A stretch of 64,000 bases of DNA from Chloroflexota bacterium (lineage in GTDB: Bacteria > Chloroflexota > UBA6077 > JACCZL01). The translations under genes and the position numbers were made by a program. The notes under the pieces are model-generated. The model ran no database searches. It had not been told where the DNA came from and saw nothing but the letters and a program-made list of their open reading frames with translations. The stretch is from positions 1 to 64,000 of the forward strand of contig JADZEM010000060.1 of the NCBI GenBank assembly GCA_020850535.1, given 5' to 3'. Shown here one piece after another: positions 676 to 17,330 of the stretch; positions within the stretch are counted from its first letter, which is position 1, and the number at the start of each line of letters is the position of its first letter.

Positions 676-1377
676 GTGACCATCGAGGAGAGTCTGGCAT
701 CGCTCGCCCCGATCTGGGGCATCCACGCGGAAACCGCGAGCACTGCCGACGCGGTCTACGCGACGCTTCGCGAGGCCGTCATCTCTGGACAGCTGAAGCC
801 GGGTGAGAGCCTGATCGAGGAGCAGATCGCGCGCCAGTTCAATGTCAGCCGGACCCCGGTCCGCGAGGCGTTGATGAAGCTGGAGGCCGAGAACCTCGGC
901 ACGCGCATCCCCCGTCGCGGGCTGGTGATCAGGCGGATCGCCGAGCGCGAGGTGCTGGACGTCTACACGGTGCGCGTCGAGCTTGACAGCCTGGCGGCCC
1001 GCCTCTCAGCAACCCACGCCAGGCCGCCGGAGCGGGCACGTCTGCACTGGATCAACCAGCAGATCGTCGAAACCGGCAACCTCGGGGACATCAGCGGGAC
1101 AGCGCGGCTCAGCAGCCAGTTCCATATCGCGCTCGCCGAGGCCTCGCACAACACCCTGCTGCTCCAACTGGCGAAGCAGATTCAGGAGATGCTGACGGCG
1201 TTCGCCTCGCCAACCTACAACTACCCGGGGCGGGCGCTGGCCGCCGCCGCCGAGCACGACGCAGTCCTGAAAGCCATCGACGCTGGGGATGCCGAGCGTG
1301 CAGCCCAGCTCGCGCGAGACCACATCGTCCGCGAACAGCAGGTGCGGGTGACGATGCTCCGGCGGTCGCAGCCCTGA
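676..1377 (+). CDS. GntR-family transcriptional regulator, FCD (FadR) subfamily
   Basis: A 233-residue DNA-binding regulator. An N-terminal winged helix (about residues 22-88) holds the typical recognition segment EEQIARQFNVSRTPVREAL. An all-helical FCD ligand-binding domain follows (about 95-225) with the FH and late DHI histidines usual for a metal-assisted acid-binding pocket. I chose GTG at 676 because GGAG lies 5 nt upstream; the frame stays open to 313 but that part is intergenic repeat. The stop overlaps the next start by one base. FCD regulators usually sense carboxylic acids or sugar acids, so control of the adjacent importer and CoA-transferase genes is likely, but that is inference from position. 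Confidence 0.9.
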   Translation: MTIEESLASLAPIWGIHAETASTADAVYATLREAVISGQLKPGESLIEEQIARQFNVSRTPVREALMKLEAENLGTRIPRRGLVIRRIAEREVLDVYTVRVELDSLAARLSATHARPPERARLHWINQQIVETGNLGDISGTARLSSQFHIALAEASHNTLLLQLAKQIQEMLTAFASPTYNYPGRALAAAAEHDAVLKAIDAGDAERAAQLARDHIVREQQVRVTMLRRSQP

Positions 1378-1955
1378 TGCGCGCACCGCACGTCCGAACG
1401 AACGCCGACACCACCGGTCCGCAGCCGAACGACGACATCCCAGATGTTGCGTGGCTCGAGCCGGCGTTCGCCATCGGGCGGCGGCCGGACCCGCCCCAGC
1501 GCCGGCAGGTGCGTGCGCTCGGCATCGACACGGTGATCACCCTGCACACCCCGGACCCAGATGAGCCACGAAGCTGGGAGGCCCTCGGGGTTCGCCTGAT
1601 CCCGTACCCGACGGTGGACTGGGAGGAGATCGCGGCCGGCCGGTTCTCGGCCGTGGTCCGCGAGATCCAGACCCAGCACCGGATGGGGCGCACGGTGCTG
1701 CTGCACTGCATCATGGGCATCAACCGCGCGCCGACGTTCGCAGCGGCGTTTCTCTGTTGGCGGGACAACCTGCCGGTTGACGACGCCCTCGCACGGGTGC
1801 GACACGCTCGCCCGACCATGGACCCCACCCGCGATCAGGTGAACTCGCTGCGCGCGTGGAATGGGGGTGGGAATCCCCCTGCGATCAACGCTCCCGTCCC
1901 GAAATTGATCCTGCCACCTGCCAACAGGCGCCCCCGCCCGTCCTCGCGCCCGTAG
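1377..1955 (+). CDS. dual-specificity/tyrosine-type protein phosphatase
   Basis: A 192-residue protein whose start ATG overlaps the stop of the GntR gene, so the two are probably translated together. The phosphatase loop HCIMGINRAP (His110, Cys111, Arg117) fits the HCx5R signature of cysteine-dependent phosphatases. Asp81, thirty residues before the Cys, sits where the general acid of dual-specificity phosphatases lies. The last 35 residues or so look poorly conserved. The substrate cannot be read from sequence; the link to a regulator and an importer might mean a signalling role, or phosphatase action on a small molecule. Confidence 0.8.
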   Translation: MRAPHVRTNADTTGPQPNDDIPDVAWLEPAFAIGRRPDPPQRRQVRALGIDTVITLHTPDPDEPRSWEALGVRLIPYPTVDWEEIAAGRFSAVVREIQTQHRMGRTVLLHCIMGINRAPTFAAAFLCWRDNLPVDDALARVRHARPTMDPTRDQVNSLRAWNGGGNPPAINAPVPKLILPPANRRPRPSSRP

Positions 1956-2023
1956 GCCCTCCGCCCGCGTCATGGGCCGTCTGGAGTGGCAGCGCCGCTC
2001 GTCCAAACGGACCTGACAACGCC

Positions 2024-2052
2024 TTGACGGTCGCAAAACAGCGTGGTACCGT
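2024..2052 (+). promoter_or_regulatory. possible sigma70-type promoter for the importer operon
   Basis: TTGACG at 2024-2029, a 17-nt spacer and TACCGT at 2047-2052. The -10 box is a weak match. It lies about 130 nt before the binding-protein gene and just upstream of the palindrome at 2068-2084, so a repressor bound there would sit at the start of transcription. Confidence 0.4.
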
Positions 2053-2067
2053 TCACGCGTTCGCCTA

Positions 2068-2084
2068 CGTACACAGTGTGTACG
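2068..2084. promoter_or_regulatory. palindromic operator candidate upstream of the importer genes
   Basis: A perfect inverted repeat, CGTACAC and GTGTACG separated by 3 nt. A second palindrome, GTGTACAC, lies at 2148-2155, between this site and the start codon at 2180. GntR/FCD regulators commonly bind short palindromes of this size, and such a regulator is encoded just upstream, so it is the natural candidate partner. The binding itself is inference. Confidence 0.4.
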
Positions 2085-2179
2085 CCAGGAAGACGCACCA
2101 CGCAGACGGCGGCGGCTGGCCACGGCGGCCAGCACAGCCCAGGTGGTGTGTACACGCTCCATTGGGGGAGGGACGGACG

Positions 2180-3994
2180 ATGCTCGGCTCGAAGGCCGCA
2201 CCCGGTGTTCTCGTAGTCATCGCGGCGCTGCTGTTGATCAGTTGTGCGCCGAGCGCGCCAGCGGCGAAGCCAACGGCCGCCGCCCAGCCGCCCGCCGCGC
2301 CAACGAGTGCACCGGCAGCCCAGGCCGCAAGCTCGCCGGCCGCCGCTCAGCCGGCCGCAAGCTCGCCGGCGGCTGCCTCCCCGGCCGCTGCTGCTGCTCC
2401 AGCCGCCAGCGGCGCAGCAGCAGCAGCAGCAGCAAGCAAGCCGGCCGCGCCGGGCGCCTTCGCCGTTCCCCAGGGAAAGCGTGGCGGAACCCTGGTCAAC
2501 ATCCGCAACCTCCGCCCCACCTCGTTCGACCCCTACTTCACGCTGACGTGGTCATCGATCACCTACAGCTCGCCCGTCTTCTCCCAGCTGCTGCGCATCA
2601 ACCCCACCAAGTCGGCCCCAGTCACCGGCGACGATCTCGTGCCCGACCTGGCCGAGCGCTGGGAGGTCAGCGCCGACGGCAAGACGATGACCTTCTTCCT
2701 GCGGAAGGGCGTCAAGTGGCACAACGGCTCGGCGTTCAGTGCCAAGGACGTCAAGTTCAGCATCGAGCGCATGGCCGATCCGAAGATCACGTTCTTCGCG
2801 GGTGACCTCGCCGACCTGGACAAGGTCGAAGTCGTCGACGATTCCACCGTTCGCGTGCTCTGGAAGGTGCCAAGCGCCTCCCGCCTCGCCACCTTTGCGA
2901 TGGGCTACTCGGTGATCCTGTCCGCGGACTTCCATCCGACCGCCGACCGCAAGACCGAGGCGTTCGCGATGGGGACAGGCCCGTTCAAGCTCGTCAGCTC
3001 GGTTCCCGGCCAGGAGTACAAGTACGAGCGCAACCCGGACTACTACGTCCAGGGCCTCCCGTTCCTCGACGGCATCACCATCAAGGTCGTCGGCACCGAC
3101 GCGCTGATGCCGACGATGATCAGCGGCCAGGGCGACACCTGCAGCTGGGTCAAGGGATGCGTCAGCAACCCGCAGGATGCCCAGCAGCTCAAGCAACAGG
3201 CGCCCACCCTGAAGCTCGGCTCCCCGCCGCAGCCAGTAGCCCGACCGCTGGGCCGCGCCGTCTACTTCAACACCTCGGTGCCCGGACCGCTCCAGTCGGC
3301 AGACGTCCGCAAGGCCCTGGCGATGGCCATCGACGTCGACTCCATCGTGGCGCGGTACGGTGGTCCGGAGTGGGCCGTCCGCAGCGGCTTCTTCCTGCCC
3401 GGCATGGGCCTGGACGTGGCCGAGGTCAACAAGCTGGTGGGCTGGGACAAGCCCAAGGCCGACCGCATCGCCGAGGCCAAGGCGCTGCTGGCGAAGGGCG
3501 GGTTCGCGAACGGCTTCCAGGCCAAAGCGCTCGTTCGCAATCAGCAGGAGTACGTCGAGGCGATGACCCTCATCACCGACGGCTGGCGTCGCGATCTCGG
3601 CGTGCAGGTCACCCTGGACACCCCTGAAACGGCCGTCGAAGTCGAGCAACGCCAGCGCTACGACTACCAGATCCTCTGGTACTTCCCCACCATGAAGGCC
3701 GGCATCCACCCGTCCGAGCTGGCCTCGCAGTTCATCTGCAACGCCCCCGAGAACTGGGCGCGCCACTGCAACAAGGACGTCGACGCCGACTTCGCCAGGA
3801 TCTCCGGGATCCTGTCCGGGGCCGAGCTGAAGTCGCTGGCCCGCAAGGTTGAGACGACCCTCCTGACCGACATGCCGGCCGTGCCGCTGCTCTACCCCGT
3901 GGACGTCACCGTCAGCAAGCCGGACGTCCAGGGGCTGACCGTCCAGTCCTGGCTGACGAACGAGGACTACGCGACCGTCTGGCTCGACCGCTAA
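2180..3994 (+). CDS. ABC transporter substrate-binding lipoprotein, family 5 (peptide/nickel type)
   Basis: A 604-residue exported lipoprotein that would capture the substrate for the permeases encoded next. The signal peptide ends in lipobox LISC with Cys22 as lipidation site. A low-complexity Ala/Pro/Ser linker (about 23-95) separates the anchor from the SBP_bac_5 domain, which runs to the C-terminus and includes the typical segments RKGVKWHNGSAFSAKDVKFS and MGTGPFKL. The start ATG has GGGGGAGG 7 nt upstream; the frame is open from 1856 but the signal peptide fixes the start at 2180. The family binds peptides, nickel, opines and other solutes, so the ligand is open. The adjacent acyl-CoA genes favour an organic acid or amide. 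Confidence 0.93.
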   Translation: MLGSKAAPGVLVVIAALLLISCAPSAPAAKPTAAAQPPAAPTSAPAAQAASSPAAAQPAASSPAAASPAAAAAPAASGAAAAAAASKPAAPGAFAVPQGKRGGTLVNIRNLRPTSFDPYFTLTWSSITYSSPVFSQLLRINPTKSAPVTGDDLVPDLAERWEVSADGKTMTFFLRKGVKWHNGSAFSAKDVKFSIERMADPKITFFAGDLADLDKVEVVDDSTVRVLWKVPSASRLATFAMGYSVILSADFHPTADRKTEAFAMGTGPFKLVSSVPGQEYKYERNPDYYVQGLPFLDGITIKVVGTDALMPTMISGQGDTCSWVKGCVSNPQDAQQLKQQAPTLKLGSPPQPVARPLGRAVYFNTSVPGPLQSADVRKALAMAIDVDSIVARYGGPEWAVRSGFFLPGMGLDVAEVNKLVGWDKPKADRIAEAKALLAKGGFANGFQAKALVRNQQEYVEAMTLITDGWRRDLGVQVTLDTPETAVEVEQRQRYDYQILWYFPTMKAGIHPSELASQFICNAPENWARHCNKDVDADFARISGILSGAELKSLARKVETTLLTDMPAVPLLYPVDVTVSKPDVQGLTVQSWLTNEDYATVWLDR

Positions 3995-4063: not shown

Positions 4064-5017
4064 GTGGGTAGGTACATTCTGCATCGGCTGCTGATCATGG
4101 TGCCGACCGCGCTCGGCGGCCTGCTCGCGCTGTTCGTGATCTTCCGCGTCCTGCCGGGCGACCCGGTCCTGATGATGCTTGGCGGCGGCGAGGGCGGCTC
4201 CGTCGATCAGCGCGCCTACGCCACGCTCCGCGCGCAGTTGAACCTCGATCAGCCGATCCCGCTCCAGTTCGTGACGTGGCTCGGGGCGGTGATGCAGGGC
4301 GACCTCGGCATGTCGTACATGACGGGCCACCCGGTCGTCACCGAGATCTTCCTGCGCTTCCCCACCAGCGTCGCCCTGATGCTGATGGCGCTGGCCATCA
4401 CGATCGTGCTCTCGGTACCGATGGGCATTCTGGCGGCACTCCGCCAGAACTCGGTGCTGGACTACCTGCTCAGGATCGTCGGGCTGAGCGGGCTGTCGAT
4501 GCCGCCGTTCTGGATCGGCATGCTGCTGATCCTGATGCTCACCACGTTCTGGCAGTGGTATCCGCCCGCCCAGTATGCGCCGCCGTACCGCGATCCGTGG
4601 CTGGCGTTTCAGCAGCTGATCTTCCCGGCGCTGGTGCTCGGGTTCCGCCCGGTCGGCGTGGCGCTGCGGGTCCTGCGCAGCAGCGTCCTCGAAGAGCTGC
4701 GCTCGGACTACGCCCGCACGGCCACCGCGAAAGGCGTGCGCGCCCGGCTGGTGATCTGGCGGCACATCCTCCCGAACTCGTTCCTCCCGACCCTCACCTA
4801 CTTCGGGCTGGAGGCCGCCGCGCTCCTGGGAGGCTCGGCCGTCGTCGAGAGCATATTCAACGTGCCGGGCGTCGGCCAGCTCCTGATTCAGGCGCTCCAG
4901 CGACGGGACTTCCCGCTCGTCCAGGGGATCATGATGACGACCCTGGCCTTCGTGATGGGCGTCAACCTTCTGGTGGACGTGCTCTACGGGTTCTTCGACC
5001 CGAGGATTCGCTACTGA
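4064..5017 (+). CDS. ABC transporter permease, DppB/OppB type
   Basis: A 317-residue inner-membrane permease. The first helix (MGRYILHRLLIMVPTALGG) and the following RVLPGDPV are the standard start of DppB-type permeases, and the EAA loop that contacts the ATPase is seen around EELRSDYARTATAKGVRARL. About six transmembrane helices are expected. The start is GTG with a GAGGGTGG ribosome-binding site. It ends in TGATG, overlapping the next permease start by one base. It pairs with the neighbouring DppC-type subunit and the binding lipoprotein. Confidence 0.93.
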   Translation: MGRYILHRLLIMVPTALGGLLALFVIFRVLPGDPVLMMLGGGEGGSVDQRAYATLRAQLNLDQPIPLQFVTWLGAVMQGDLGMSYMTGHPVVTEIFLRFPTSVALMLMALAITIVLSVPMGILAALRQNSVLDYLLRIVGLSGLSMPPFWIGMLLILMLTTFWQWYPPAQYAPPYRDPWLAFQQLIFPALVLGFRPVGVALRVLRSSVLEELRSDYARTATAKGVRARLVIWRHILPNSFLPTLTYFGLEAAALLGGSAVVESIFNVPGVGQLLIQALQRRDFPLVQGIMMTTLAFVMGVNLLVDVLYGFFDPRIRY

Positions 5018-5907
5018 TGGCCACGATCTCCGTCCCCCGTCCCGTCAACCAGCCATCCCGCGCCAGCTCCACGAAGAAGGCCCTCGGACGCTTCGCCCGC
5101 AGCCGGCCGCTGGGGGTCATCGGCGGCGCGGTGATCCTGATCCTGATCGTGGCGGCCGTCTTCGCGCCGATCATCTCGCCGTACGACCCAAACGACACGG
5201 CGATCCTCGCCAAGCTGCAAGCGCCATCCTGGGAGCACCCGTTCGGCACCGACAACCTCGGGCGCGACATCCTCAGCCGCGTGATCTACGGCGCTCGGCA
5301 GTCGCTGATGATCTCCATCGCCGCTACGCTGGCAGGGTCGCTGGTTGGCGGCCTGATCGGGTTGTGCAGCGCGTTCAGCAGCACCCGGGTCGACATGCTG
5401 ATCCAGCGCGTCGCCGACGTGATGCTCGCCTTCCCGAACCTGATCCTGCTGCTGGCGCTGGTCGCAGCGCTCGGGCCGTCCCTGCCGACCATCGTCGTGG
5501 CCCTCGCCATCGGCAATGTGCCACGCGTCAACCGGCTGGTGCGCTCGGCGGCGCTCACCATCAAGAGCACCACCTACATCGAGGCGGCGCAGGCCATCGG
5601 CTGCGGCAGCCCGCGCATCATCCTCTGGCACCTCGCACCAAACTGCCTGGCGCCGTGGTTCATCTACACCGCCACGCTGTTCGGGCAGGTGATCCTGGCC
5701 GAGGCGACCCTCTCCTTCCTGGGGCTCGGCGTGCCACCGCCAAACCCCTCCTGGGGCAGCGACCTGACGGCCGCGCAGCGCTACTTCCTGCAGTCGCCGT
5801 GGATGGCGCTCTGGCCGGGCGTCGCGATGAGCGCCATCGTGTTCGGCGCGAACCTGCTGGGCGACTCGCTGCGCGACGCCCTCGATCCGAAGCTGCGGGG
5901 GCGGTAA
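5017..5907 (+). CDS. ABC transporter permease, DppC/OppC type
   Basis: A 296-residue permease that completes the membrane channel. The N-terminus has the OppC-type layout: a cytoplasmic tail, a first helix (GVIGGAVILILIVAAVFAPI) and then the periplasmic stretch with the PFGTDNLGRDILSRVIYGAR signature. The EAA loop is at TYIEAAQAIGCGSPRII. The start overlaps the previous stop; a longer frame from 4276 is only an out-of-frame reading of dppB. The two DppD/DppF ATPases that normally complete such an operon are absent, so they must come from elsewhere. Confidence 0.93.
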   Translation: MATISVPRPVNQPSRASSTKKALGRFARSRPLGVIGGAVILILIVAAVFAPIISPYDPNDTAILAKLQAPSWEHPFGTDNLGRDILSRVIYGARQSLMISIAATLAGSLVGGLIGLCSAFSSTRVDMLIQRVADVMLAFPNLILLLALVAALGPSLPTIVVALAIGNVPRVNRLVRSAALTIKSTTYIEAAQAIGCGSPRIILWHLAPNCLAPWFIYTATLFGQVILAEATLSFLGLGVPPPNPSWGSDLTAAQRYFLQSPWMALWPGVAMSAIVFGANLLGDSLRDALDPKLRGR

Positions 5908-5910
5908 GCC

Positions 5911-8376
5911 ATGACCACGGACGGGAGCGGACAGGGAGACCAGCCGGCTGCGGGCGTGGGACCGCTTGCCGGCCTGCGGGTTGTCGACTTCGGCCGATTC
6001 GCGGTGGGGCCGGCAGCGGGGATGTACCTCGGGCAGCTTGGGGCCGAGGTGATCAAGATCGAATCGCCGACTGGCGACGGCAGCCAGAAGGTCATGCCAC
6101 TGAAGCAGGGCGTCAGCATCGTCTACATGACGGTGAACTCCTGCAAGCAGAACATCCTGTTGGACTTGCGCGATCCGGCCGACCGCGACGTGGCGTTTCG
6201 GCTGGCCTGCAGCGCCGATGTGCTGATCGAGAACTTCCGAACCGGCGTGATCGACCGGTTGGGCCTCGGCTACGAGGCCGTCTCGGCGGTCAACCCACGG
6301 ATCGTCTACGGCTCGGCGTCTGGGTACGGCAGCCGTGGCCCGATGCGCGAGCTTGGCAGCACCGACCACTTCGGGCAGGCGATCAGCGGATTCGTGTCGG
6401 TCAACGGCAGCCCCGGCGGCGAGCCTGAACTGCTGCGGCAGGCCGGCTTCGTGGACATGGCCAGCGCGCAGCGGCTGCTCCAGGCGATCCTTGCCGGGCT
6501 CTACATCCGCGAGCGGACGGGGCGCGGCCAGAAGGTCGAGACCTCGCAGCTTGCGGCCGGCCTGGGGCTGGTGATCACCCGCCTCGCCGAGGCCGCCCTG
6601 GGGGACGCCTCGCCCGAGCCGCTCGGCAGCGCCAGCCCGACCTGCGTCCCCAGCCAGGCGTTCCGGTGCGCCGACGGTCAGTGGCTGTTCGTCTCGACGG
6701 AGACGCCAGACCAGTGGCAGCGGCTCTGCCAGGCGCTCGGACGCGCGGACCTCGCGGAGGACCACCGCTTCGCCAGCAACCGCATGCGCGTGGCACACCG
6801 CGATGCACTGGTGGCCGTGCTGTCAGCCTGCTTCGCCGAGCAGCCGGCTGCCGACTGGGAGCAGCGCCTCCTCCAGCATGGCGTTCCGGCCGCGCTGCAC
6901 TGGGCCGCCCCGACGCATGCGCCGCTCTGGTCAGACCCGCATGTCACCGCCGCTGCGCTGAGCCAGATGGTCGAGACGCCCTGGGGCCGCGTCCGGATCG
7001 TGCGTCCACCCTGGCAGTTCAGCGAGACCCCGGCGACGTTGACCCGCTCGCCCCGGCCTGACGAGCACGGCGTCGAGATCCGCCAGCGCCTGGCCGCGCC
7101 GGCCCAGGAGGACGCAGCGGCAGCCAGCCCGGCGCACACCAACGGCGCTTCGCGTTCGGCTGCCTCTGCATTCACTGTATCCAGAGGCGGGGCAGCGAGC
7201 GACGGCCGGCCGTTCGCGCCCCTCCGCGTGGTGGACATCTCCCAGGGGTATGCCGGCCCCTCCTGCTCGATGCTCCTGGGCGATCTCGGTGCGGACGTGG
7301 TCAAGGTCGAGCCGCCACAGGGTGACTACACCCGCGAGCTCGGCCCCCCATTCGTCGGGAACGAGAGCACACCCTACCTGAGCGTGAACCGCAGCAAGCG
7401 CGGCGTGGTGCTCGATCTGGAGACCGCCGGGGGCAGGGCGGCGCTCGACAGGCTGCTCGCGACCGCCGACGTGTTCATCTCAGACCTGCTGCCCGCCGAA
7501 GCCGCGCGCCTCGGCCTGGACGACGCGACGCTGCGAACGCGCCTCTCGGCCCTGGTTCACTGCGTCATCACGCCGTTCGGCGAGGCTGGGCCGTACGTGG
7601 CTCGGCCCGCCTCCGAGCTGACGGTCCAGGGCTTCGCTGGCATCGGACGCTTCCTGGGCGCACTCGACGAGCCGCCGGTCCGCCTCGGTGCGGACGTGGT
7701 GGGGCTGACAGCCGGCGTGCACGCCTTTGTCGGCATCGTCTCAGCGCTGATTCGGCAGGCCCGGACCGGACGCGGCCAGAAGGTCGGCATCGATCAACTC
7801 CTGACACTGCTCTCCACCGAGTGCTCGCAGCTAGCCCGTGAGAGCGACCCTGACGAGTGGATCGGGCCGGTGCGCGCCGCGTCGCAGCCGCCCGAGCACC
7901 CGTACCCCACCGCGGACGTGCCGGTGTACTTCACGCTGGCGCGAACAGGCCAGGAGGACACCTGGCCGCGGTTCTTCCGTGACCTGGGGCTGCCCGCGCT
8001 GGCGGACGACTCGCGATTCGCAGGTCAGCGTCAACGCCAGGCACACCACCATGAGCTTGCCGAGGCCATGGCGCCCCGCCTCGCCCAGCTTCAGGCCGAC
8101 GAGATCCTGGCCCTGGTGTACCGCCACGGCGGCCTGGGTGTGCGGGCGCACACGCTCCGCTCAGTCCTGGATGACCCACAGGTCGCTGCCACCGAGATGC
8201 TCGTGACGGTCCAGCATCCGGATCTGGGGCCGTTGCGCGGCGTCAACGTGCCGTTCGAGCTGGTCATGACCCGCCCGTCGGTCACGCTGCCACCACCCCG
8301 CCTGGGAGAGCACACGCACGAGGTGCTGAACGAGCTACGCACGCACACAGAGGGGACAGGAGGTCACCGCTCGTGA
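5911..8376 (+). CDS. fused tandem family III CoA-transferase (two CaiB/BaiF domains)
   Basis: An 821-residue protein made of two full CaiB/BaiF CoA-transferase domains (about 20-400 and 425-810). These enzymes move CoA between carboxylic acids through an aspartyl-CoA anhydride. Each half begins with the canonical LRVVD...GPxxxxxLGxLGAxVxKxExPxGD block. Asp182 of the first half (in GFVDMASAQ) aligns with the catalytic Asp; the second half has an Asp at the matching place (RLGADVVGLT). Halves one and two are separately similar to the single-domain proteins at 10956 and 12220 (shared LVITRLAE/LQITRLAE, and PPQGDYTR/PPEGDYAR then ITPFG). The gene starts 4 nt after the permease and overlaps the next gene by 4 nt, so it is in the same operon. 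Confidence 0.9.
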   Translation: MTTDGSGQGDQPAAGVGPLAGLRVVDFGRFAVGPAAGMYLGQLGAEVIKIESPTGDGSQKVMPLKQGVSIVYMTVNSCKQNILLDLRDPADRDVAFRLACSADVLIENFRTGVIDRLGLGYEAVSAVNPRIVYGSASGYGSRGPMRELGSTDHFGQAISGFVSVNGSPGGEPELLRQAGFVDMASAQRLLQAILAGLYIRERTGRGQKVETSQLAAGLGLVITRLAEAALGDASPEPLGSASPTCVPSQAFRCADGQWLFVSTETPDQWQRLCQALGRADLAEDHRFASNRMRVAHRDALVAVLSACFAEQPAADWEQRLLQHGVPAALHWAAPTHAPLWSDPHVTAAALSQMVETPWGRVRIVRPPWQFSETPATLTRSPRPDEHGVEIRQRLAAPAQEDAAAASPAHTNGASRSAASAFTVSRGGAASDGRPFAPLRVVDISQGYAGPSCSMLLGDLGADVVKVEPPQGDYTRELGPPFVGNESTPYLSVNRSKRGVVLDLETAGGRAALDRLLATADVFISDLLPAEAARLGLDDATLRTRLSALVHCVITPFGEAGPYVARPASELTVQGFAGIGRFLGALDEPPVRLGADVVGLTAGVHAFVGIVSALIRQARTGRGQKVGIDQLLTLLSTECSQLARESDPDEWIGPVRAASQPPEHPYPTADVPVYFTLARTGQEDTWPRFFRDLGLPALADDSRFAGQRQRQAHHHELAEAMAPRLAQLQADEILALVYRHGGLGVRAHTLRSVLDDPQVAATEMLVTVQHPDLGPLRGVNVPFELVMTRPSVTLPPPRLGEHTHEVLNELRTHTEGTGGHRS

Positions 8377-9545
8377 CTGATAGCATCAAGGACACCGTCG
8401 CCATCGTGGGGACGGGCATCTCTCGGCAGGGTCAGCTGCCCGGGTCCGATGCCTACGCGCTCGCCGCCGAGGCCTTCAAGGCGGCAATCGACGATGCTGG
8501 CCTCGAGAAAGAGGATATCGACGGCATCTCGGTCCGCGCCCTGGACCCGATCCACGGATCGGCACAGGAGGTCGCGCGGACGCTCGGGCTGAACCCGCCG
8601 TTCCTCTTCACCGGGCAGTTCGGCGGCGCCAGCACCACCATCGCGATCCAGCAGGCGGCGTTGGCGATCCACCACGGCCTCGCCAAGACGGTGGCGGTGG
8701 TCTACGCCTGCAACAACCGCTCGGTGCGGCGACGGTTCAACACGCCACGCTACGAGCATCATGCGCCGTATGGCCACTTCGGTCCGGGCGCGCGGCTCGC
8801 CCTGGCGATCCACCGCTACTTCCACGACTACTACGGCCTGGAGAAGAGCGACGAGGACTCGCTGCGACCGTTGCAGCAGAAGCTCGGCGCGCTGGCCGTC
8901 GCCGCACGCCGCCACGCCTCGCTGACCCCGCACGGCTACATTCGCAAGCCGATGACCATCGAGCAGTACCTGGACGACCGGTACATCGTCTGGCCGCTGC
9001 GCCGCCCTGACTACGCCCTGATCAGCGATGGCGGCGGCTGCTTGATCCTGACCTCCGCGGAGCGCGCCCGCGACATGAAGAAGCCGCCGATCCTGATCTC
9101 GGGGATGGGCCAGGGGCACGTGCCGCGCGCCCAGGAGCACCCCTCGTACATCCTCCAGCGGCAGATGGAAGGCATGGCCGCCGAGGGCGTCTATCGCAGC
9201 AGCGGGCTCGGCCCGAGCGACATGGACGCGATGTACGTCTATGACAGCTTCACGATCCTGAGTCTGTTCGCCCTCGAAAACTTCGGCATCTGCAAGCCTG
9301 GCGAGGGCCTGGAGTTCATTCAGAACGGCCGCACCGAGTTCGACGGCGCGTTCCCCCTCAACACGAACGGCGGACACACCGCCGAGAGCTACATCGGCGG
9401 CATCCTCCACTACGTCGAAGCGGCCCGCCAGATGTGGGGCGAGGCTGGCCCCCGCCAGATCAAGAAGCGCCTCGACACGATCCTCTGCACCGGCGAAGGC
9501 ACCGGCGGCACCGACGCGGGCGCCGTCATCCTGCGAAAGGGCTAG
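8373..9545 (+). CDS. thiolase-like (SCP2/lipid-transfer type) acyl-CoA C-C bond enzyme
   Basis: A 390-residue thiolase-fold protein of the lipid-transfer/SCP2-thiolase branch. The N-terminal nucleophile Cys of true thiolases is missing: the segment around residues 80-90 reads TGQFGGASTTI. The C-terminal GG-H segment (NTNGGHTAESYIGG) and a late CTGEGTGG are present. Family members without the Cys, such as Ltp2 of sterol side-chain degradation, act as aldolases together with a DUF35 partner, and one is encoded directly downstream. A retro-aldol or thiolytic cleavage of a CoA intermediate is therefore likely. The start is GTG at 8373, overlapping the previous stop, with AGGAGGT upstream. Confidence 0.88.
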   Translation: MTDSIKDTVAIVGTGISRQGQLPGSDAYALAAEAFKAAIDDAGLEKEDIDGISVRALDPIHGSAQEVARTLGLNPPFLFTGQFGGASTTIAIQQAALAIHHGLAKTVAVVYACNNRSVRRRFNTPRYEHHAPYGHFGPGARLALAIHRYFHDYYGLEKSDEDSLRPLQQKLGALAVAARRHASLTPHGYIRKPMTIEQYLDDRYIVWPLRRPDYALISDGGGCLILTSAERARDMKKPPILISGMGQGHVPRAQEHPSYILQRQMEGMAAEGVYRSSGLGPSDMDAMYVYDSFTILSLFALENFGICKPGEGLEFIQNGRTEFDGAFPLNTNGGHTAESYIGGILHYVEAARQMWGEAGPRQIKKRLDTILCTGEGTGGTDAGAVILRKG

Positions 9546-9548
9546 ACG

Positions 9549-9965
9549 ATGGCCGAGTACCTCAAGCCACTCCCGGACCTCGACAACGAGATCACCCGGC
9601 CGTTCTGGGACCACATCAAGAACCACGAGCTGCGGATGCAGAAGTGCACCGATTGCGGCCACGTCCGCTTTCCGGTCACGCCGGTCTGCACGGACTGCCT
9701 CTCGGACAGCTTCGAATGGGCGCTGCTGAGTGGCAAAGGCACGCTCTGGTCCTGGAACCAGGTCTACCACCTCTACAACAAGGGCTGGCAGGACGAGATG
9801 CCCTACAACGTCGGCTACGTCCTGCTCGACGAGGGCATCGGCCTGATCACCAATATGGTGAACGTGGACGTCGCCGATCTACGCTTCGACATGCCCGTAG
9901 AAGTCGTCTTCGACGACGTGACCCCCGAGGTCACCCTGCCAAAATTCCAGCCGGCGCGCTCGTGA
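9549..9965 (+). CDS. DUF35 OB-fold / zinc-ribbon partner of the thiolase-like protein
   Basis: A 138-residue protein with the DUF35 layout: a short N-terminal helix (TRPFWDHIKNHELRMQKC), a rubredoxin-like zinc ribbon with Cys33, Cys36, Cys47 and Cys50, then an OB fold. DUF35 proteins form stable complexes with thiolase-like enzymes (ChsH2/Ltp2, BbsA/BbsB) and help to place the acyl-CoA substrate. The gene starts 3 nt after the thiolase-like gene, which fits a 1:1 complex. I see no other domain. Confidence 0.9.
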   Translation: MAEYLKPLPDLDNEITRPFWDHIKNHELRMQKCTDCGHVRFPVTPVCTDCLSDSFEWALLSGKGTLWSWNQVYHLYNKGWQDEMPYNVGYVLLDEGIGLITNMVNVDVADLRFDMPVEVVFDDVTPEVTLPKFQPARS

Positions 9966-9975
9966 GGGATCGACG

Positions 9976-10929
9976 ATGATCATTGACGCGCACATGCACA
10001 TCCACTCGCCGACGTTCATCTCGGCGAGGCTACGGATGTTCTACGCCCGCGCGGCGGCGTACCGCTCGCTGCCGTTCCGCGATCCAGAGGCGCTGTTCCC
10101 GCGCACCACGAAGGCCATCGCAGATCCCGAGGGCACGTACACCATCGGCGAGATGGACGCGCACGGCGTGGACATCATGGTGCCGATGATCGTGGATCAT
10201 GCGATCCACGTCGGCGAAGAGGCCGAGATCCCCTTCCCGAAGGTCGTGGAGCACTATGCTGAGCTGATGCAGCGCTACAAGGGACGCCTCTACGCCTTCA
10301 TCGGCGTGGACCCCCGGCGGCCGGGCGGCCTGGAGCTGTTCGAGCGGGCCGTCAAGGAGTGGGGCTTCCGAGGTCTGAAGCTCTACCCCGGCAACGGCTA
10401 CTACCCGTACGATGAGGTCTGTACGCCCTTCTACAAGAAGTGCCTGGAACTGGGCGTGCCGGTCACGTTCCACACCTCACCAACGCCAGCGCCGGCGACC
10501 TCGCGCTTCGCCCGCCCGATGAACCTGTCCGATCTCCACGGCGAATACCCAGACCTGACCATCATCTACGCCCACGCCGGGCACGGTGCGTGGTGGGAAG
10601 AAGCGGCACAGGTCGCGAGCGGCCACCCGCACGGCTACCTCGACCTCTCGCAGTGGCCGCGCGACGCCCGCAAGGATCTTGGAGGCTTCATCCAGAAGCT
10701 CGGCGTGATGCGCGACTACGTCGGGGCACACCGGATCCTCTGGGCCAGCGACTTCGGCTTCGGCCCGAGCACGTCCGGCGACCGCTCACCGCTGCCCCAC
10801 TGGCTCAAGACCTTCAAGGATCTGCCCGCCACCGCCGAGCAGTACGGCGTCAAATTCACCCAGGAAGAGGTTGACCTGATGCTGGGCGGCAACGCGCAGC
10901 GCATTCTCAACCTGCAGCCGCCGGCCTGA
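9976..10929 (+). CDS. amidohydrolase-2 family (ACMSD-like TIM-barrel) hydrolase or decarboxylase
   Basis: A 317-residue TIM-barrel enzyme. The start IIDAHMHIHSP has the DxHxH metal motif; further ligands are expected at the His of VTFHTSP, the His pair in IIYAHAGHG and the Asp of ILWASDFGFG. The family holds decarboxylases (ACMSD, gamma-resorcylate), hydratases and lactonases that act on carboxylated rings or ring-cleavage products. Its place between the thiolase/DUF35 pair and the split CoA-transferases suggests it handles an early or late intermediate of the same pathway. The exact reaction cannot be read from sequence. Confidence 0.88.
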   Translation: MIIDAHMHIHSPTFISARLRMFYARAAAYRSLPFRDPEALFPRTTKAIADPEGTYTIGEMDAHGVDIMVPMIVDHAIHVGEEAEIPFPKVVEHYAELMQRYKGRLYAFIGVDPRRPGGLELFERAVKEWGFRGLKLYPGNGYYPYDEVCTPFYKKCLELGVPVTFHTSPTPAPATSRFARPMNLSDLHGEYPDLTIIYAHAGHGAWWEEAAQVASGHPHGYLDLSQWPRDARKDLGGFIQKLGVMRDYVGAHRILWASDFGFGPSTSGDRSPLPHWLKTFKDLPATAEQYGVKFTQEEVDLMLGGNAQRILNLQPPA

Positions 10930-10955
10930 GCGCCCTGTCTCTGGAGGACGACCGT

Positions 10956-12143
10956 ATGACCCAACCGCTTGCCAGGATCCGCGTGTTCGACCTGACCAAC
11001 GCCGGCGTCGGTCCGATTGCGACCGAATTGCTGGCCGGCCTTGGGGCCGACGTGATCAAGGTCGAGAGCCCCGAGGGCGACGTGATGCGGACCATGCTGC
11101 CCCGGCAGCGCGGTTTCCCCACGGCGTACACCTCGCACAACTTCAACAAGCGCGCCATCGTCCTCGATCTCAAGGACACAAAGGATCGGCAGTGGGCGTA
11201 TCGCCTGCTCGAAACCTGTGACATCTTCGTCGAGAACTTCCGCCCCGGGGTGGCAAAGCGGCTCGGCGTCGACTATGAGTCGGTCTCGAAGGTCAACCCG
11301 CGCATCATCTACATCTCCAGCTCGGCCTGGGGCGACCGTGGCCCGATGCAATACTTCGCGGGGGTCGATCCCAACCTGCAGGCGTTCAGCGGGTTCGCCT
11401 CGATCAATGGGCCTGAGGACAACGGCGGCGAGTTCCATCGCGGCTACGGCCACATCGACGCCACCACGGCGAGTTACATCTCGTCGGCGGCGATCCAGGC
11501 GCTGATCGAGCGGGAGCAGAGCGGGCAGGGCGCCCACATCGTCATCTCGATGCTCGGCTGCGCGCTCAACCTCCAGATCACTCGCCTCGCCGAGTACTTC
11601 GCTGGCGAGGCGCCGACCGCACGCGGAACCGCCGCGACGTTCTCGGCGCCGAACCAGGCGTTCCAGTGCCAGAACCATAAGTGGGTCGCCGTGACGGTCG
11701 AGACCGACGCCCAATGGCAGGCGCTCTGCGAGACGATCCGCCGGCCCGATCTGGCGTCGGACGAGCGGTACGCGACCAACACGGGCCGCGTCGACAACCG
11801 CGAGGAGCTCTCGGCGACGCTTACGGAGATCTTCGCCAGCAAGCCGAGCATCTGGTGGACCAAGGAGCTGACGCGCCTCGGCGTCCCGAACTCCCTGTTC
11901 CTCGACTTCGAGATCCTGCGAGAGCACGTGCAGGTGGCCGCCAACGACATGATGGTGGTCATCGACGTGCCACACCAGGGACCGATCAGCACCAGCGGCT
12001 ACCCCTGGCGCTTCAGCGAGTTCGAGGTGCCGGTGCTGCCGGCGCCGGCCCCCGACCAGCACACGCAGGAGGTCCTGGCCAGCCTCAGCCCGAAGGAGTC
12101 GGCGGAGACGCCGGCCCCCGAGACGGCGACCGTCGAGGCCTGA
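10956..12143 (+). CDS. family III CoA-transferase (CaiB/BaiF), subunit A-like
   Basis: A 395-residue single-domain CoA-transferase. The N-terminal block (GPIATELLAGLGADVIKVES) and Asp168 in GHIDATTAS, at the catalytic position, are both present. The protein resembles the first half of the fused enzyme at 5911 (shared AFQC...W..V..ET.AQWQALC region and LQITRLAE). A GGAGG site precedes the ATG. It probably works as a heteromer with the product of the next gene, as BbsE/BbsF do. The acyl substrate is unknown. Confidence 0.9.
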   Translation: MTQPLARIRVFDLTNAGVGPIATELLAGLGADVIKVESPEGDVMRTMLPRQRGFPTAYTSHNFNKRAIVLDLKDTKDRQWAYRLLETCDIFVENFRPGVAKRLGVDYESVSKVNPRIIYISSSAWGDRGPMQYFAGVDPNLQAFSGFASINGPEDNGGEFHRGYGHIDATTASYISSAAIQALIEREQSGQGAHIVISMLGCALNLQITRLAEYFAGEAPTARGTAATFSAPNQAFQCQNHKWVAVTVETDAQWQALCETIRRPDLASDERYATNTGRVDNREELSATLTEIFASKPSIWWTKELTRLGVPNSLFLDFEILREHVQVAANDMMVVIDVPHQGPISTSGYPWRFSEFEVPVLPAPAPDQHTQEVLASLSPKESAETPAPETATVEA

Positions 12144-12219
12144 GACCAGACGGCGGCGCAGGGGCCACGCCGGCTGACACTCCCACGTCAGCCGGTGTGG
12201 CCCGCTGCACCAGCCTCGG

Positions 12220-13467
12220 ATGCCGTTCTCTCTGGCGTCCCCTGCGGAAAGGAGCACTCCCACGTTCGCCAATGCACTCCGCGACCTCACGGTCGTCGAC
12301 ATCAGCCAGGGCGTGTCCGGCTCGTACACGAGCCTGATGCTGCGCCACGCGGGCGCGCGTGTCATCAAGATCGAGCCACCCGAGGGTGACTACGCCCGCC
12401 GCTTCGCCATCACGATGGGGTCGGACAGCGCCGTCTTCTTCGCCCTCAACCGGGGCAAGGAGAGTGTGGTCCTCGACCTGACCACCGAGAGCGGGCGCGC
12501 CGCGCTGCGCCGCCTGCTCAAGACCGCCGACGTCTTCGTGGATGACCTCGGACCAGACCGCGCGGCGGCCCTCGGGCTCGACCACGCAACGCTGTCCCAG
12601 GACAACCCGCGCCTGATCCAGGCGAGCATCACACCGTTCGGGGACCACGGGCCGCACCGCAACCGGCCCGGCAGCGAGCTGGTGGTGCAGGCCGCCGCCG
12701 ACTACCCGAACTCGCTCGGGTCGCTCGGCGAGCCGCCACGGCGAGTCGGTACGGACATCGGCTACATCAACAGCGCCATCTTTCTGTACCAGGCCGTGCT
12801 GGCCGCCATCTTCCAGCGTCTGAGCACCGGGCGCGGACAGCGGGCCTCCGTCAGCATGATGGGCTCGTTGATCTACACCCGGAAGACGGTCTGGGCCGCG
12901 ATGGGCTACCCCGATACCTGGATCGGGGCGCACACCGAGACGTACATGACCCCGCCGACCTACGCCTACAAGACGAAGGACGGCGCGATCTACTTCAGCC
13001 TCCGGCGTGGCAGCGAGGAGCAGTACTTCGGGCTGCTCGACGCGCTCGGCATTCTGGAAGAGGCGTTGGAGGACGAACGCTTCGGGGACGGCGGCCGGGC
13101 GGCTGTCGGGCTGGGGCCGGTGGCCCAGGCGGTCAAGCCGCTCTGGGAGCGTGGGCTCGCCAACCTCACCTCAGATGAGGCGCTGGCGCTCATCCAGTCG
13201 TTCGGGGCAGAAGGCGTGCCGGTCAACACCCACGCGTCGGTACTGGCCTCCGAGCAGGTGGCGGCCCTGGATCTGCTCCACACCGTCGAGCACCCCGAGC
13301 TTGGCGACGTGCCAACGATTCGGATGCCGTGGCGGATCGACGGCGAAGTGCCAACGCTCGACGGACCGGCGCCTGCGCTGGGCGCGCACACCGCGTCGGT
13401 GCTGTCCGCCGCCGGGTACTCGGCCGCTGAGGCCCACGATCTCGGTCGGCTGGCGGTCGCAGGCTAA
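12220..13467 (+). CDS. family III CoA-transferase (CaiB/BaiF), subunit B-like
   Basis: A 415-residue CoA-transferase most like the second half of the fused protein at 5911 (DISQG, PPEGDYAR, ITPFGDHGP, GSELVVQ). Asp179 in VGTDIGYIN is at the catalytic position. The listed ATG at 12220 has no good ribosome-binding site, while a strong AAAGGAG at 12248-12254 lies 7 nt before an in-frame ACG at 12262 that would begin the protein at its conserved edge (TFANALRDLTVVD). The true start may therefore be that ACG, giving 401 residues. It ends at a hairpin shared with the convergent hydrolase gene. Confidence 0.88.
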   Translation: MPFSLASPAERSTPTFANALRDLTVVDISQGVSGSYTSLMLRHAGARVIKIEPPEGDYARRFAITMGSDSAVFFALNRGKESVVLDLTTESGRAALRRLLKTADVFVDDLGPDRAAALGLDHATLSQDNPRLIQASITPFGDHGPHRNRPGSELVVQAAADYPNSLGSLGEPPRRVGTDIGYINSAIFLYQAVLAAIFQRLSTGRGQRASVSMMGSLIYTRKTVWAAMGYPDTWIGAHTETYMTPPTYAYKTKDGAIYFSLRRGSEEQYFGLLDALGILEEALEDERFGDGGRAAVGLGPVAQAVKPLWERGLANLTSDEALALIQSFGAEGVPVNTHASVLASEQVAALDLLHTVEHPELGDVPTIRMPWRIDGEVPTLDGPAPALGAHTASVLSAAGYSAAEAHDLGRLAVAG

Positions 13468-14649: not shown

Positions 14650-15402
14650 TTGCTCCAGGTGACCGAACGAGATCGCATCGTGTTCCTGACCGTGCCGGCG
14701 CCCCTGCCGCTCGGCCCGGCGTCTGCTCGCCTTGCGTGGTCCGTGCAAGATGCCTGCGACGAGATCGAGCAGCGGGATGAGCCGGTGGCGGCGGTCGTAC
14801 TGGCGTCCGGCAGCGGGGCGTTCTGGCTGGAGCCGCCCACGAGCGCGGCCGATCTCGACGCGCTCGGGAGCGTCTGGGCCGACATGCTTGCAGCCCTTGA
14901 CCGCCTGAGCCCCCCGCTGGTGGCCTGCCTGGGCGGCGACGCGGTTGGGCCGGCCTGGGAGCTGGCGCTCGCGTGCGACCTCCGGCTGGCGTCGGCCAAC
15001 GCGCGCGTTGGCAGTCCAGAGATCCGCTGGGGCCGGCTGCCGGTGGCGGGCGGGATTCAGCGGCTGGTACGAGCCGTCGGGTCCACGCTGACGACGCGAC
15101 TGCTGCTGCTCGGAGAGGTGGTGACCGCCTCCGAGGCGCTGGCGCTCGGGCTGGTCCATCGCGTCGCCACACCGGCCGATCTGACCACGAGCCTCGATGC
15201 GTTGCTCGAACCGCTGCGTACCAGCGCACCGATCGCGCTGGCCTACGCCCGTGAGGCGATCCGCTCCGCGCCCGATCTGCCCCTGGCAGCCGGCCTGCGT
15301 CTCGAAGCGGATCTGGCGGCGCTCTTGCAGACCACCGCCGACCGCGCCGAGGGACTCAGTGCGTTCCTGGCGCGCCGTCCGCCCCGCTTCGAGGCCCGAT
15401 GA
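14650..15402 (+). CDS. enoyl-CoA hydratase/isomerase-like protein (divergent)
   Basis: A crotonase-fold protein of about 250 residues. The oxyanion region is atypical (VVLASGSGAFWLEPPTS in place of the usual AFCAGAD), while ACDLRLASANARVGSPEIRWG and the following GGIQRLVRAVG match the family. The Glu of SPE is present, but the first catalytic Glu region reads GPAWELALACD. I place the start at TTG 14650, 7 nt after GGGGAGA; GTG at 14659 is the alternative. The stop overlaps the next start (ATGA). It may be a partner or an altered-specificity copy of the canonical hydratase at 17327. Confidence 0.75.
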   Translation: MLQVTERDRIVFLTVPAPLPLGPASARLAWSVQDACDEIEQRDEPVAAVVLASGSGAFWLEPPTSAADLDALGSVWADMLAALDRLSPPLVACLGGDAVGPAWELALACDLRLASANARVGSPEIRWGRLPVAGGIQRLVRAVGSTLTTRLLLLGEVVTASEALALGLVHRVATPADLTTSLDALLEPLRTSAPIALAYAREAIRSAPDLPLAAGLRLEADLAALLQTTADRAEGLSAFLARRPPRFEAR

Positions 15403-17330
15403 CGCGCACGCAGCCGCTGGATGGGCTTCGGGTCTTGCTGGCGTCCACGTCCAGGCCAGACGACGGCGCGGTCGTGGCCGCCCGCATCCTGCGGCAGCTT
15501 GGCGCAACGGTGCTCGCGGCCGCGCACCCAGAGGGCCGCCAGTATGACCTCGCGCTCGTCAGCGGCGAGATCCTGCCGCCACGCGCGAGTGCCAGCAGCG
15601 TTCCCGAGCACCTGGCCCGGGTGGTTCTGTCGGTGAGGCGCTGCGAGCACGATGGAACCGACGCCACCTGCCACGGCAGCCCGATCCTCGCTGCATGCCG
15701 TCCGGATGTCGTGGCGGCACTGACCGGCGCACATGCTGCCGTCGCGGCCCTCGCCGGGATTCGCTGGCAGCGGTCGCCTGGACGACCGGCCGCGCCAGCG
15801 CTCCGCATCGAGGTTGCGACCGTGGACGTGCTCGCCGGCTGTCTCGGCGACATCCTCCCACGCGCCCTCTGCCCCGACGAGCAGCCTGCCGATGCGCCCA
15901 ACGCCGGGACGCGCGCAGAACGGGGGCTGCGCGTCCTCCGGTGTCTCGACGGCTACGTCGGGGTTGGGCCGCTGGGCGACGACGACCGCGAGTTGCTCGC
16001 CGCGCTCGTTGCCAGCGACGCCCCTGGCGACAGCGACGCCTCTGGCGACGGCGACGCCTCTGGCGACGGCGACGCCTCTGGGCACAGCGTGGCCCTCCTC
16101 GACATCCTTCTACGCGCCGACGCCACGCCGGCCGATCCCCTGGCCGGCTGGCTTGGGCATCGGACTCGCGCCGAGGCTGTCGAGGCGGCGCAGCTCTGGC
16201 GTATCCCGATGACCCCGGCGCTCTCCCCCCAGGAGGTGGCTGGCCTGGGCGCACAGCCGCCCGCGGCTTCCGATTCGGCGCACCAGTGCGCTGACGCGGC
16301 CGGACCGTTCCGTATCGAGTCGGGGCCGCTGGCGGCCACCACCCGATCCCCTCGGCAGCTCGTTCCTCCGGCCCGGCCGCTCTCCGGTTTGCGCGTTCTG
16401 GACCTCGGCATGGTCTGGGCCGGGCCGTACGCCGGGCGACTGCTGGCCAGCCTCGGAGCGGAGGTCGTCAAGGTCGAGGGGCCGAAGCGGCCTGACGGAA
16501 CACGTCGCGCGGCTCACACCGCCTGCCCCGGCGTCTTCGCGGATCTGCACCAGGGCAAGCGGAGCCTCGTGCTGGACCTCGCCTGCCGGGATGGACGCGA
16601 CCTGTTCCTGCGACTCGTCGCCAGCGCCGACCTCGTGCTGGAGAACTTCAGTCGGCGGGTGATGCCCCATCTCGGTCTGGACTACCCGACGCTGGCGGCG
16701 ACCAACCCCTCTCTGCTGATGCTCTCCCTGCGCGCCTTCTCGCCCGCTGGCCCGCACGCCGACCACGTGGCCTACGGCAGCAGCCTGGAGCTTGCCACCG
16801 GGCTGGCCGGTTGTCCGCCCGGCGGCGTGCCCACGCCATCCTCGGTGGCGTACCTCGACTACCTGGCCGGCTGCTACGGTGCGGCCGGGCTGCTGGCCCT
16901 GCTGATCGCGCGGGACGCGGATGGGCGCGGCGCGCGTCTGGAGGTCGCCCTCGAGGACGTTGCGCGCGAGGTGCGGTCGCTGACGCATGGCGCTGAGCAT
17001 CGTGCGCCCGGCCTGTCCGTCGACGAGGCGGCGATCCTCGCCGACAGCCATCTGCGCGAGGGCGGTCTGCTCGACGGACAACGTCGTGCGCCACGGCACG
17101 CCCACCTCGCCCGAGCGCCGTTCCGCCTGGATGGGATCCCCTCGGTCCCAGCCGGCGCGGCGCTGCTGGCCCCAGCCTTCGGGGCCGGCAGCCGCGCAGT
17201 GCTGCGGCGGCAGGCCGGCCTTTCACCAGACGCCATCGACCGGCTGATACGCGCGGGCGTCGTGGTGACGCCCCACCGACGCCGGTCGACCAATCGCGGG
17301 TCCGCTCCCACGAACGAGGTCCGCCGATGA
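15399..17330 (+). CDS. double CaiB/BaiF protein with degenerate N-terminal half
   Basis: A 643-residue protein. The C-terminal half (from about 325) is a recognisable CoA-transferase with GPYAGRLLASLGAEVVKVEG and an Asp in YLDYLAG at the catalytic position, though its C-terminal part is short. The first 300 residues keep only a faint outline (LRVLLAS...AARILRQLGATVLAAAHPEG) and probably lack activity. They contain four 18-nt tandem units (16017-16088) coding for Asp/Gly/Ser/Ala repeats. It overlaps both neighbours by 4 nt (ATGA), so it is in the operon. It could be a heterodimer-like enzyme with one structural half. Confidence 0.8.
   Translation: MTRTQPLDGLRVLLASTSRPDDGAVVAARILRQLGATVLAAAHPEGRQYDLALVSGEILPPRASASSVPEHLARVVLSVRRCEHDGTDATCHGSPILAACRPDVVAALTGAHAAVAALAGIRWQRSPGRPAAPALRIEVATVDVLAGCLGDILPRALCPDEQPADAPNAGTRAERGLRVLRCLDGYVGVGPLGDDDRELLAALVASDAPGDSDASGDGDASGDGDASGHSVALLDILLRADATPADPLAGWLGHRTRAEAVEAAQLWRIPMTPALSPQEVAGLGAQPPAASDSAHQCADAAGPFRIESGPLAATTRSPRQLVPPARPLSGLRVLDLGMVWAGPYAGRLLASLGAEVVKVEGPKRPDGTRRAAHTACPGVFADLHQGKRSLVLDLACRDGRDLFLRLVASADLVLENFSRRVMPHLGLDYPTLAATNPSLLMLSLRAFSPAGPHADHVAYGSSLELATGLAGCPPGGVPTPSSVAYLDYLAGCYGAAGLLALLIARDADGRGARLEVALEDVAREVRSLTHGAEHRAPGLSVDEAAILADSHLREGGLLDGQRRAPRHAHLARAPFRLDGIPSVPAGAALLAPAFGAGSRAVLRRQAGLSPDAIDRLIRAGVVVTPHRRRSTNRGSAPTNEVRR
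16017..16088 (+). repeat. four 18-bp tandem repeats inside a CDS
   Basis: Four in-frame units of the form GACGCCTCTGGCGACGGC. The inner two are identical and the outer two carry substitutions. They encode a flexible Asp/Ala/Ser/Gly linker in the degenerate half of the CoA-transferase at 15399. Slippage could change the copy number without breaking the frame. Confidence 0.9.

Follow-up and report, generated by a model that had tools for sequence, protein, structure and literature searches.

Within the 64,000-nucleotide stretch of a Chloroflexota genome analysed here (the window), a fused class III CoA-transferase and two single-domain proteins of the same class are encoded at one locus, which raises the question of whether the fused chain and the separate proteins are two forms of the same assembly, and of how both came to be present. 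The original prediction was that each half of the fusion corresponds to one of the single proteins, that the single proteins form a heteromer, and that a duplication left one copy fused and the other split, perhaps to serve two CoA acceptors.

The fused protein (821 aa, 5911..8376, + strand) was delimited by its open reading frame and two PF02515 stretches found with Pfam. Its chain is ordered as putatively active domain (F), linker and putatively inactive domain (E). The catalytic F domain (5965..7062, +) was located by its PF02515 match in the genome search and contains the codon of the catalytic Asp182 (6454..6456, +), which was aligned with the Asp column of YfdE, FRC (formyl-CoA transferase), SUGCT and BbsF. 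An Ala/Ser-rich, low-confidence linker of residues about 396-430 (7096..7200, +), recognised from the sequence and from pLDDT <50, leads to the non-catalytic E domain (7222..8316, +; PF02515 match and alignment), where Gly598 replaces Asp. The two single proteins, named here after the first positions of their genes, were delimited by open reading frame, Pfam, BLAST and alignment: 10956 is a separate F subunit of 395 aa with the catalytic Asp168 (10956..12143, +; codon 11457-11459), and 12220 is a separate E subunit of 415 aa with Tyr182 in place of Asp (12220..13467, +; codon 12763-12765). One PF02515 match was found in each of them, and the PF02515 gathering score was exceeded in both single proteins and both halves of the fusion.

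The correspondence of halves and single proteins was confirmed, and the coordinates given for it were correct. In pairwise BLAST the N-terminal half of the fusion was 40.1% identical to 10956 (E 4e-89) and the C-terminal half 40.7% identical to 12220 (E 2e-80), whereas identity fell to 27-31% in the non-matching comparisons of halves and single proteins, and to 31% between both parts of the fusion. The best match of each half among the 24 PF02515 matches of its own genome was likewise the corresponding single protein. In a tree of 62 rows, seven F halves, including the N-terminal half and 10956, formed one clade (support 100/100), and seven E halves, including the C-terminal half and 12220, formed another (100/99). 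The BLAST E-values together with this tree exclude chance similarity. The halves of the fusion as mutual closest relatives are ruled out by the BLAST comparison, by the two separate clades and by the AU test, in which a tree with the halves together had p-AU 0.011.

A sequencing or assembly artefact behind the contrast of fused and split genes might be suspected in a draft genome of 227 contigs, but we regard it as extremely improbable. The genes of 10956 and 12220 lie 76 bp apart and have separate stops; the first ends with TGA at 12141-12143 and the second is in a different frame with its own in-frame upstream stop at 12175-12177, so a simple frameshift in a fused gene does not account for the split pair. 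One further genome also has an independent fused homologue, and at least three have split ones.

To model the 821-aa chain, AlphaFold2 was run on a single chain with an alignment of seven two-domain rows, three of which were adjacent gene pairs read through the stop codon. The model had a mean pLDDT of 76 and a pTM of 0.85, with residues 396-430 below a pLDDT of 50. When it was searched with Foldseek, class III single-domain chains were matched to one half at a time (target-length TM-score 0.72-0.89). A pTM this high would fit a chain whose halves pack against each other in a defined way.

The two kinds of half differ at the residue that carries the chemistry in this class. The catalytic column of the alignment holds Asp in the N-terminal half of the fusion (D182), in 10956 (D168) and in BbsF, YfdE, FRC and SUGCT, and it holds G598 in the C-terminal half of the fusion, Y182 in 12220 and Tyr in BbsE. 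As judged from these residues, each unit is made up of an apparently active (F) and an apparently inactive (E) half. Since the C-terminal half and 12220 do not carry the Asp, E is termed here a partner subunit and not an enzyme, and E halves should not be active transferases alone.

This arrangement resembles BbsEF, the succinyl-CoA:(R)-benzylsuccinate CoA-transferase (PDB 9fn0, 9fol and 9fun), in which one Asp-bearing and one Asp-less class III subunit are encoded side by side; BbsE and 12220 both have Tyr at the catalytic column. In BbsF the Asp of this column is number 178, the residue named in the title of PDB entry 9fol ('D178-CoA adduct'). A profile search of the PDB returned BbsE (9fn0_A) at the top for the set of the C-terminal half and 12220, and BbsF (9fn0_B) at the top for the set of the N-terminal half and 10956, with each profile including one subunit of an E-F pair from another contig of the window genome (C49) that is itself a member of the BbsEF clades. 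The window proteins themselves are only 23-30% identical to BbsEF and fall into clades separate from BbsF and BbsE, and their units have the active half first, whereas in the BbsEF-related E-F loci the inactive subunit comes first.

Homologues were then collected from 400 sampled genomes of the phylum. The E profile matched with 484-655 bits in six of them (G000, G092, G136, G220, G318 and G387), the next best match having 295 bits; the F profile matched in the same genomes except G318, where the contig ends beside E. F and E were paired or fused in every copy found, apart from this one E at the contig end, and the window genome was the only one among those found to carry two units. A fused F-E homologue of 767 aa, with Asp in the first half and Gln in the second, was found at locus L134 (G136, same phylum). 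Split F-E pairs with mutual identities of about 80-91% were found in Chloroflexi MAG bin125 (L047), G220 and G387, and a more divergent split pair with E first in G092 (L142). The sampled phylum is probably Chloroflexota, since proteins of G220 and G387 share about 80% identity with those of bin125, a named Chloroflexi MAG. The catalytic Asp is present in all seven F members of this family, and the same column in the E members of the seven units holds G, Y, Q or S, the E row of L142 being ambiguously aligned. The main groups are the same in the F tree and the E tree. For the fusion itself, no relative closer than about 40% identity was seen in its own class or in the 400 sampled genomes of the phylum, and plasmid matches reached 38% at most among the matches listed. 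As a separate observation, all E members of this family share an unvarying PD-x-W-x-G stretch (PDTWIG, residues 231-236 of 12220), a possible signature of the partner subunit.

The predicted heteromer of 10956 and 12220 is supported by the Asp kept in one half per unit, as in BbsEF, by the pairing of the copies and by the broad agreement of the F and E trees. With the Asp kept in one half and lost in the other, as in BbsEF, the best explanation is that the single proteins form a heteromer and the fusion a single-chain pseudo-heterodimer. We consider it quite probable that the locus encodes two class III (CaiB/BaiF-type) CoA-transferases from a single sub-family, each pairing an F half with an E half. 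CoA-transferase activity, the physical heteromer and the division of labour between the halves are all three inferred here. If 10956 and 12220 were independent homodimeric CoA-transferases instead, and the fusion a chance joining of enzymes with separate reactions, they would conform to the majority of characterised class III enzymes, which are homodimers, and to the many single-domain family members of this genome; we judge this very unlikely, however, because the catalytic Asp is missing from 12220 and from the C-terminal half, E-type halves are invariably neighbours of F-type ones or fused to them, the F and E trees broadly agree and BbsEF offers a precedent.

It could also be proposed that the E halves are catalytic through other residues, for instance as a lyase, racemase or hydrolase, and that the units are bifunctional like DddD, a two-domain class III protein that performs both transfer and lyase steps (PMC6006322; PMC5395668). 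The E halves do have conserved residues of their own, such as P231, D232, W234 and G236 in the numbering of 12220. The residue at the Asp position varies (G, Y, Q or S), however, and no second active site was identified in them, which makes a bifunctional unit rather unlikely in comparison with a catalytic F half and its partner.

The predicted duplication with one copy fused and the other split held in part: the two units are paralogous, but the split pair has its nearest relative in a fused protein from a different genome of the phylum. In the tree of concatenated units, the split window pair grouped with the fused L134 (87/88) and the window fusion branched earlier. AU tests of the fused/split history, performed on a concatenation of 15 units, marginally rejected the window fusion and L134 as sisters, that is, one shared fusion (p 0.036). 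Since the L134 fusion groups with the split pair, the duplication is probably old and the fused/split state has probably switched at least twice, the AU tests being only marginal on this point. A recent in-place tandem duplication of the window units, after which one copy was fused, would agree with their shared F-E order, shared operon and about 40% identity in both halves. We nevertheless consider it unlikely, as the split pair groups with L134 rather than with its neighbour, and the window units as sisters were rejected at p-AU 0.048, which, like the support and the test of a shared fusion, is marginal.

Tandem domains joined by a poorly conserved linker are a feature that the 821-aa protein shares with the two-domain type III CoA-transferases DddD and PtmU4, of which about 2,401 homologues were counted in a 2017 search. 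In PtmU4 homologues the conserved Asp belongs to the C-terminal domain (PMC6006322). Unlike PtmU4, the 821-aa protein and L134 have it in the N-terminal domain, PtmU4 and DddD being compared here by description only. Among the eight fused proteins whose domain order was determined, two are active-first (the 821-aa protein and L134) and six active-second. Adjacent class III genes also occur at L139 in another genome of the phylum (G175), but there the Asp is present in both members, which are mutual closest relatives. We take the L139 pair to be SmtAB-like.

Active/inactive pairs and two-domain class III proteins are already known; the active-first order, a family found in one phylum, and fused and split forms within one predicted operon are new. 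In the 62-row tree the BbsF-like and BbsE-like proteins formed their own clades. AU tests did not reject one clade for the family E halves and BbsE (p 0.26) or one clade for the family F halves and BbsF (p 0.062), so that the inactive subunit is only suggested to have arisen independently. A wider reading, in which these proteins are a paired lineage of one phylum with the catalytic half first, whose division into catalytic and pseudo-catalytic halves is independent of BbsEF and of DddD/PtmU4 and which switched between fused and split states more than once, is put forward tentatively, as a possibility that falls somewhat short of probable.

The surrounding genes are all on the + strand. Upstream lies a GntR/FCD-type regulator (676..1377; PF00392 and PF07729), its start placed at 676 within a longest open reading frame from 313. 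It is followed by a family 5 solute-binding protein of a peptide-type ABC transporter (2180..3994; PF00496; longest open reading frame 1856-3994, start placed at 2180), by ABC permease B (4064..5017; PF00528 and PF19300) and by ABC permease C (5017..5907; PF00528 and PF12911), which ends only a few bases 5' of the fusion. After the fusion come an SCP-x/Ltp2/BbsB-type thiolase-like protein (8373..9545; PF22691), whose gene overlaps the stop codon of the fusion by 4 bp, an OB-fold/zinc-ribbon thiolase partner of the ChsH2/BbsA type (9549..9965; PF01796 and PF12172; NCBIfam BbsA below cut-off) and, between both transferase units, an Amidohydrolase-2 family TIM-barrel enzyme (9976..10929; PF04909). 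The order is thus solute-binding protein, two permeases, fusion, thiolase, OB protein, amidohydrolase, F and E, with short gaps, and this spacing suggests that the genes form one operon. Promoter and terminator scans of the locus gave results no better than shuffles, and Rfam returned no match.

The nearest solved chains to the thiolase-like protein were 4u4e, 6ok1 and 7pxp (BbsAB), of which we take 6ok1 to be an Ltp2-type structure. No cut-off of the NCBIfam equivalog models was reached in the locus, and because the thiolase and OB proteins scored under the BbsA and BbsB cut-offs they were not assigned as BbsAB. Similar neighbourhoods recur elsewhere in the family: thiolase homologues adjoin the split F-E genes in L047, L135 and L136, and E in L176 (G318), where the genes seen are E, thiolase and OB. 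L047 has the binding protein and both permeases of the transporter, the F-E pair, thiolase, OB and amidohydrolase; L135 and L136 have thiolase, OB, both permeases, the F-E pair and open reading frames that start like the L047 amidohydrolase. Thiolase or OB genes were not seen beside the pair in L134 or L142. The PF04909 amidohydrolase is also near the F-E genes in L047 and L134. Adjoining the amidohydrolase in bin125 is a 774-aa protein with LUD, 4Fe-4S and cysteine-rich (CCG) domains (L047 13818-16139, -); open reading frames starting like it occupy the same place in L135 and L136, and none was seen in the window operon.

BbsEF works with the OB/thiolase pair BbsAB in its pathway (PMC10818641), and the window likewise has thiolase and OB genes. 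The substrate of BbsEF is made by a glycyl-radical enzyme, whereas the window genome gave no PF01228 match for such an enzyme; the pathway is therefore not that of benzylsuccinate, and the acids are not compounds of the benzylsuccinate type that the cell itself has formed.

A working scheme can be proposed from the class III family and BbsEF. In the fusion the active half comes first and about 35-40 flexible residues join it to the second half; this chain would fold as a single-chain pseudo-heterodimer, and 10956 and 12220 would assemble in the same way as a heteromer of two subunits. The reaction would begin with attack of the F-half Asp (D182 or D168) on the donor acyl-CoA, yielding a mixed anhydride and then an aspartyl-CoA thioester, from which CoA would be handed to the imported carboxylic acid. 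The dimers of this enzyme class are interlocked rings (PMC3720670), and the E half may complete such a dimer and shape the acceptor pocket without supplying a nucleophile, leaving one active site per pair. The resulting CoA ester would be cleaved by the neighbouring thiolase/OB complex.

Class III proteins are often annotated merely as 'CoA transferase', and one residue together with gene adjacency would sort them into active and partner halves, so that many adjacent pairs could be annotated as a single enzyme. With both forms, fused and split, next to each other, the locus offers a natural experiment on the need for a non-catalytic partner and on what is gained by fusion. SAR202 Chloroflexota are reported to have heavily expanded sets of CaiB-type (class III) CoA-transferases (PMC5395668). 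In the window genome, three more fusions were found on contigs C41 and C98 (L001 7902-10442, L001 15264-17564 and L003 4211-6514) in the opposite order, with the first half lacking the Asp and the second carrying it. The split E-F pair on C49 (L002 9457-12102) groups with BbsE and BbsF and adjoins transporter permeases and an enoyl-CoA hydratase. In a third two-domain class III protein of the window itself (643 aa; 15399-17330, +), the first half is degenerate and the second spans only about 200 of the 366 PF02515 positions, though an Asp is kept at 487 (YLDYLAG). Its short length and the position of its Asp recall PtmU4-type proteins, and its gene adjoins two enoyl-CoA hydratases and an AMP-dependent CoA ligase.
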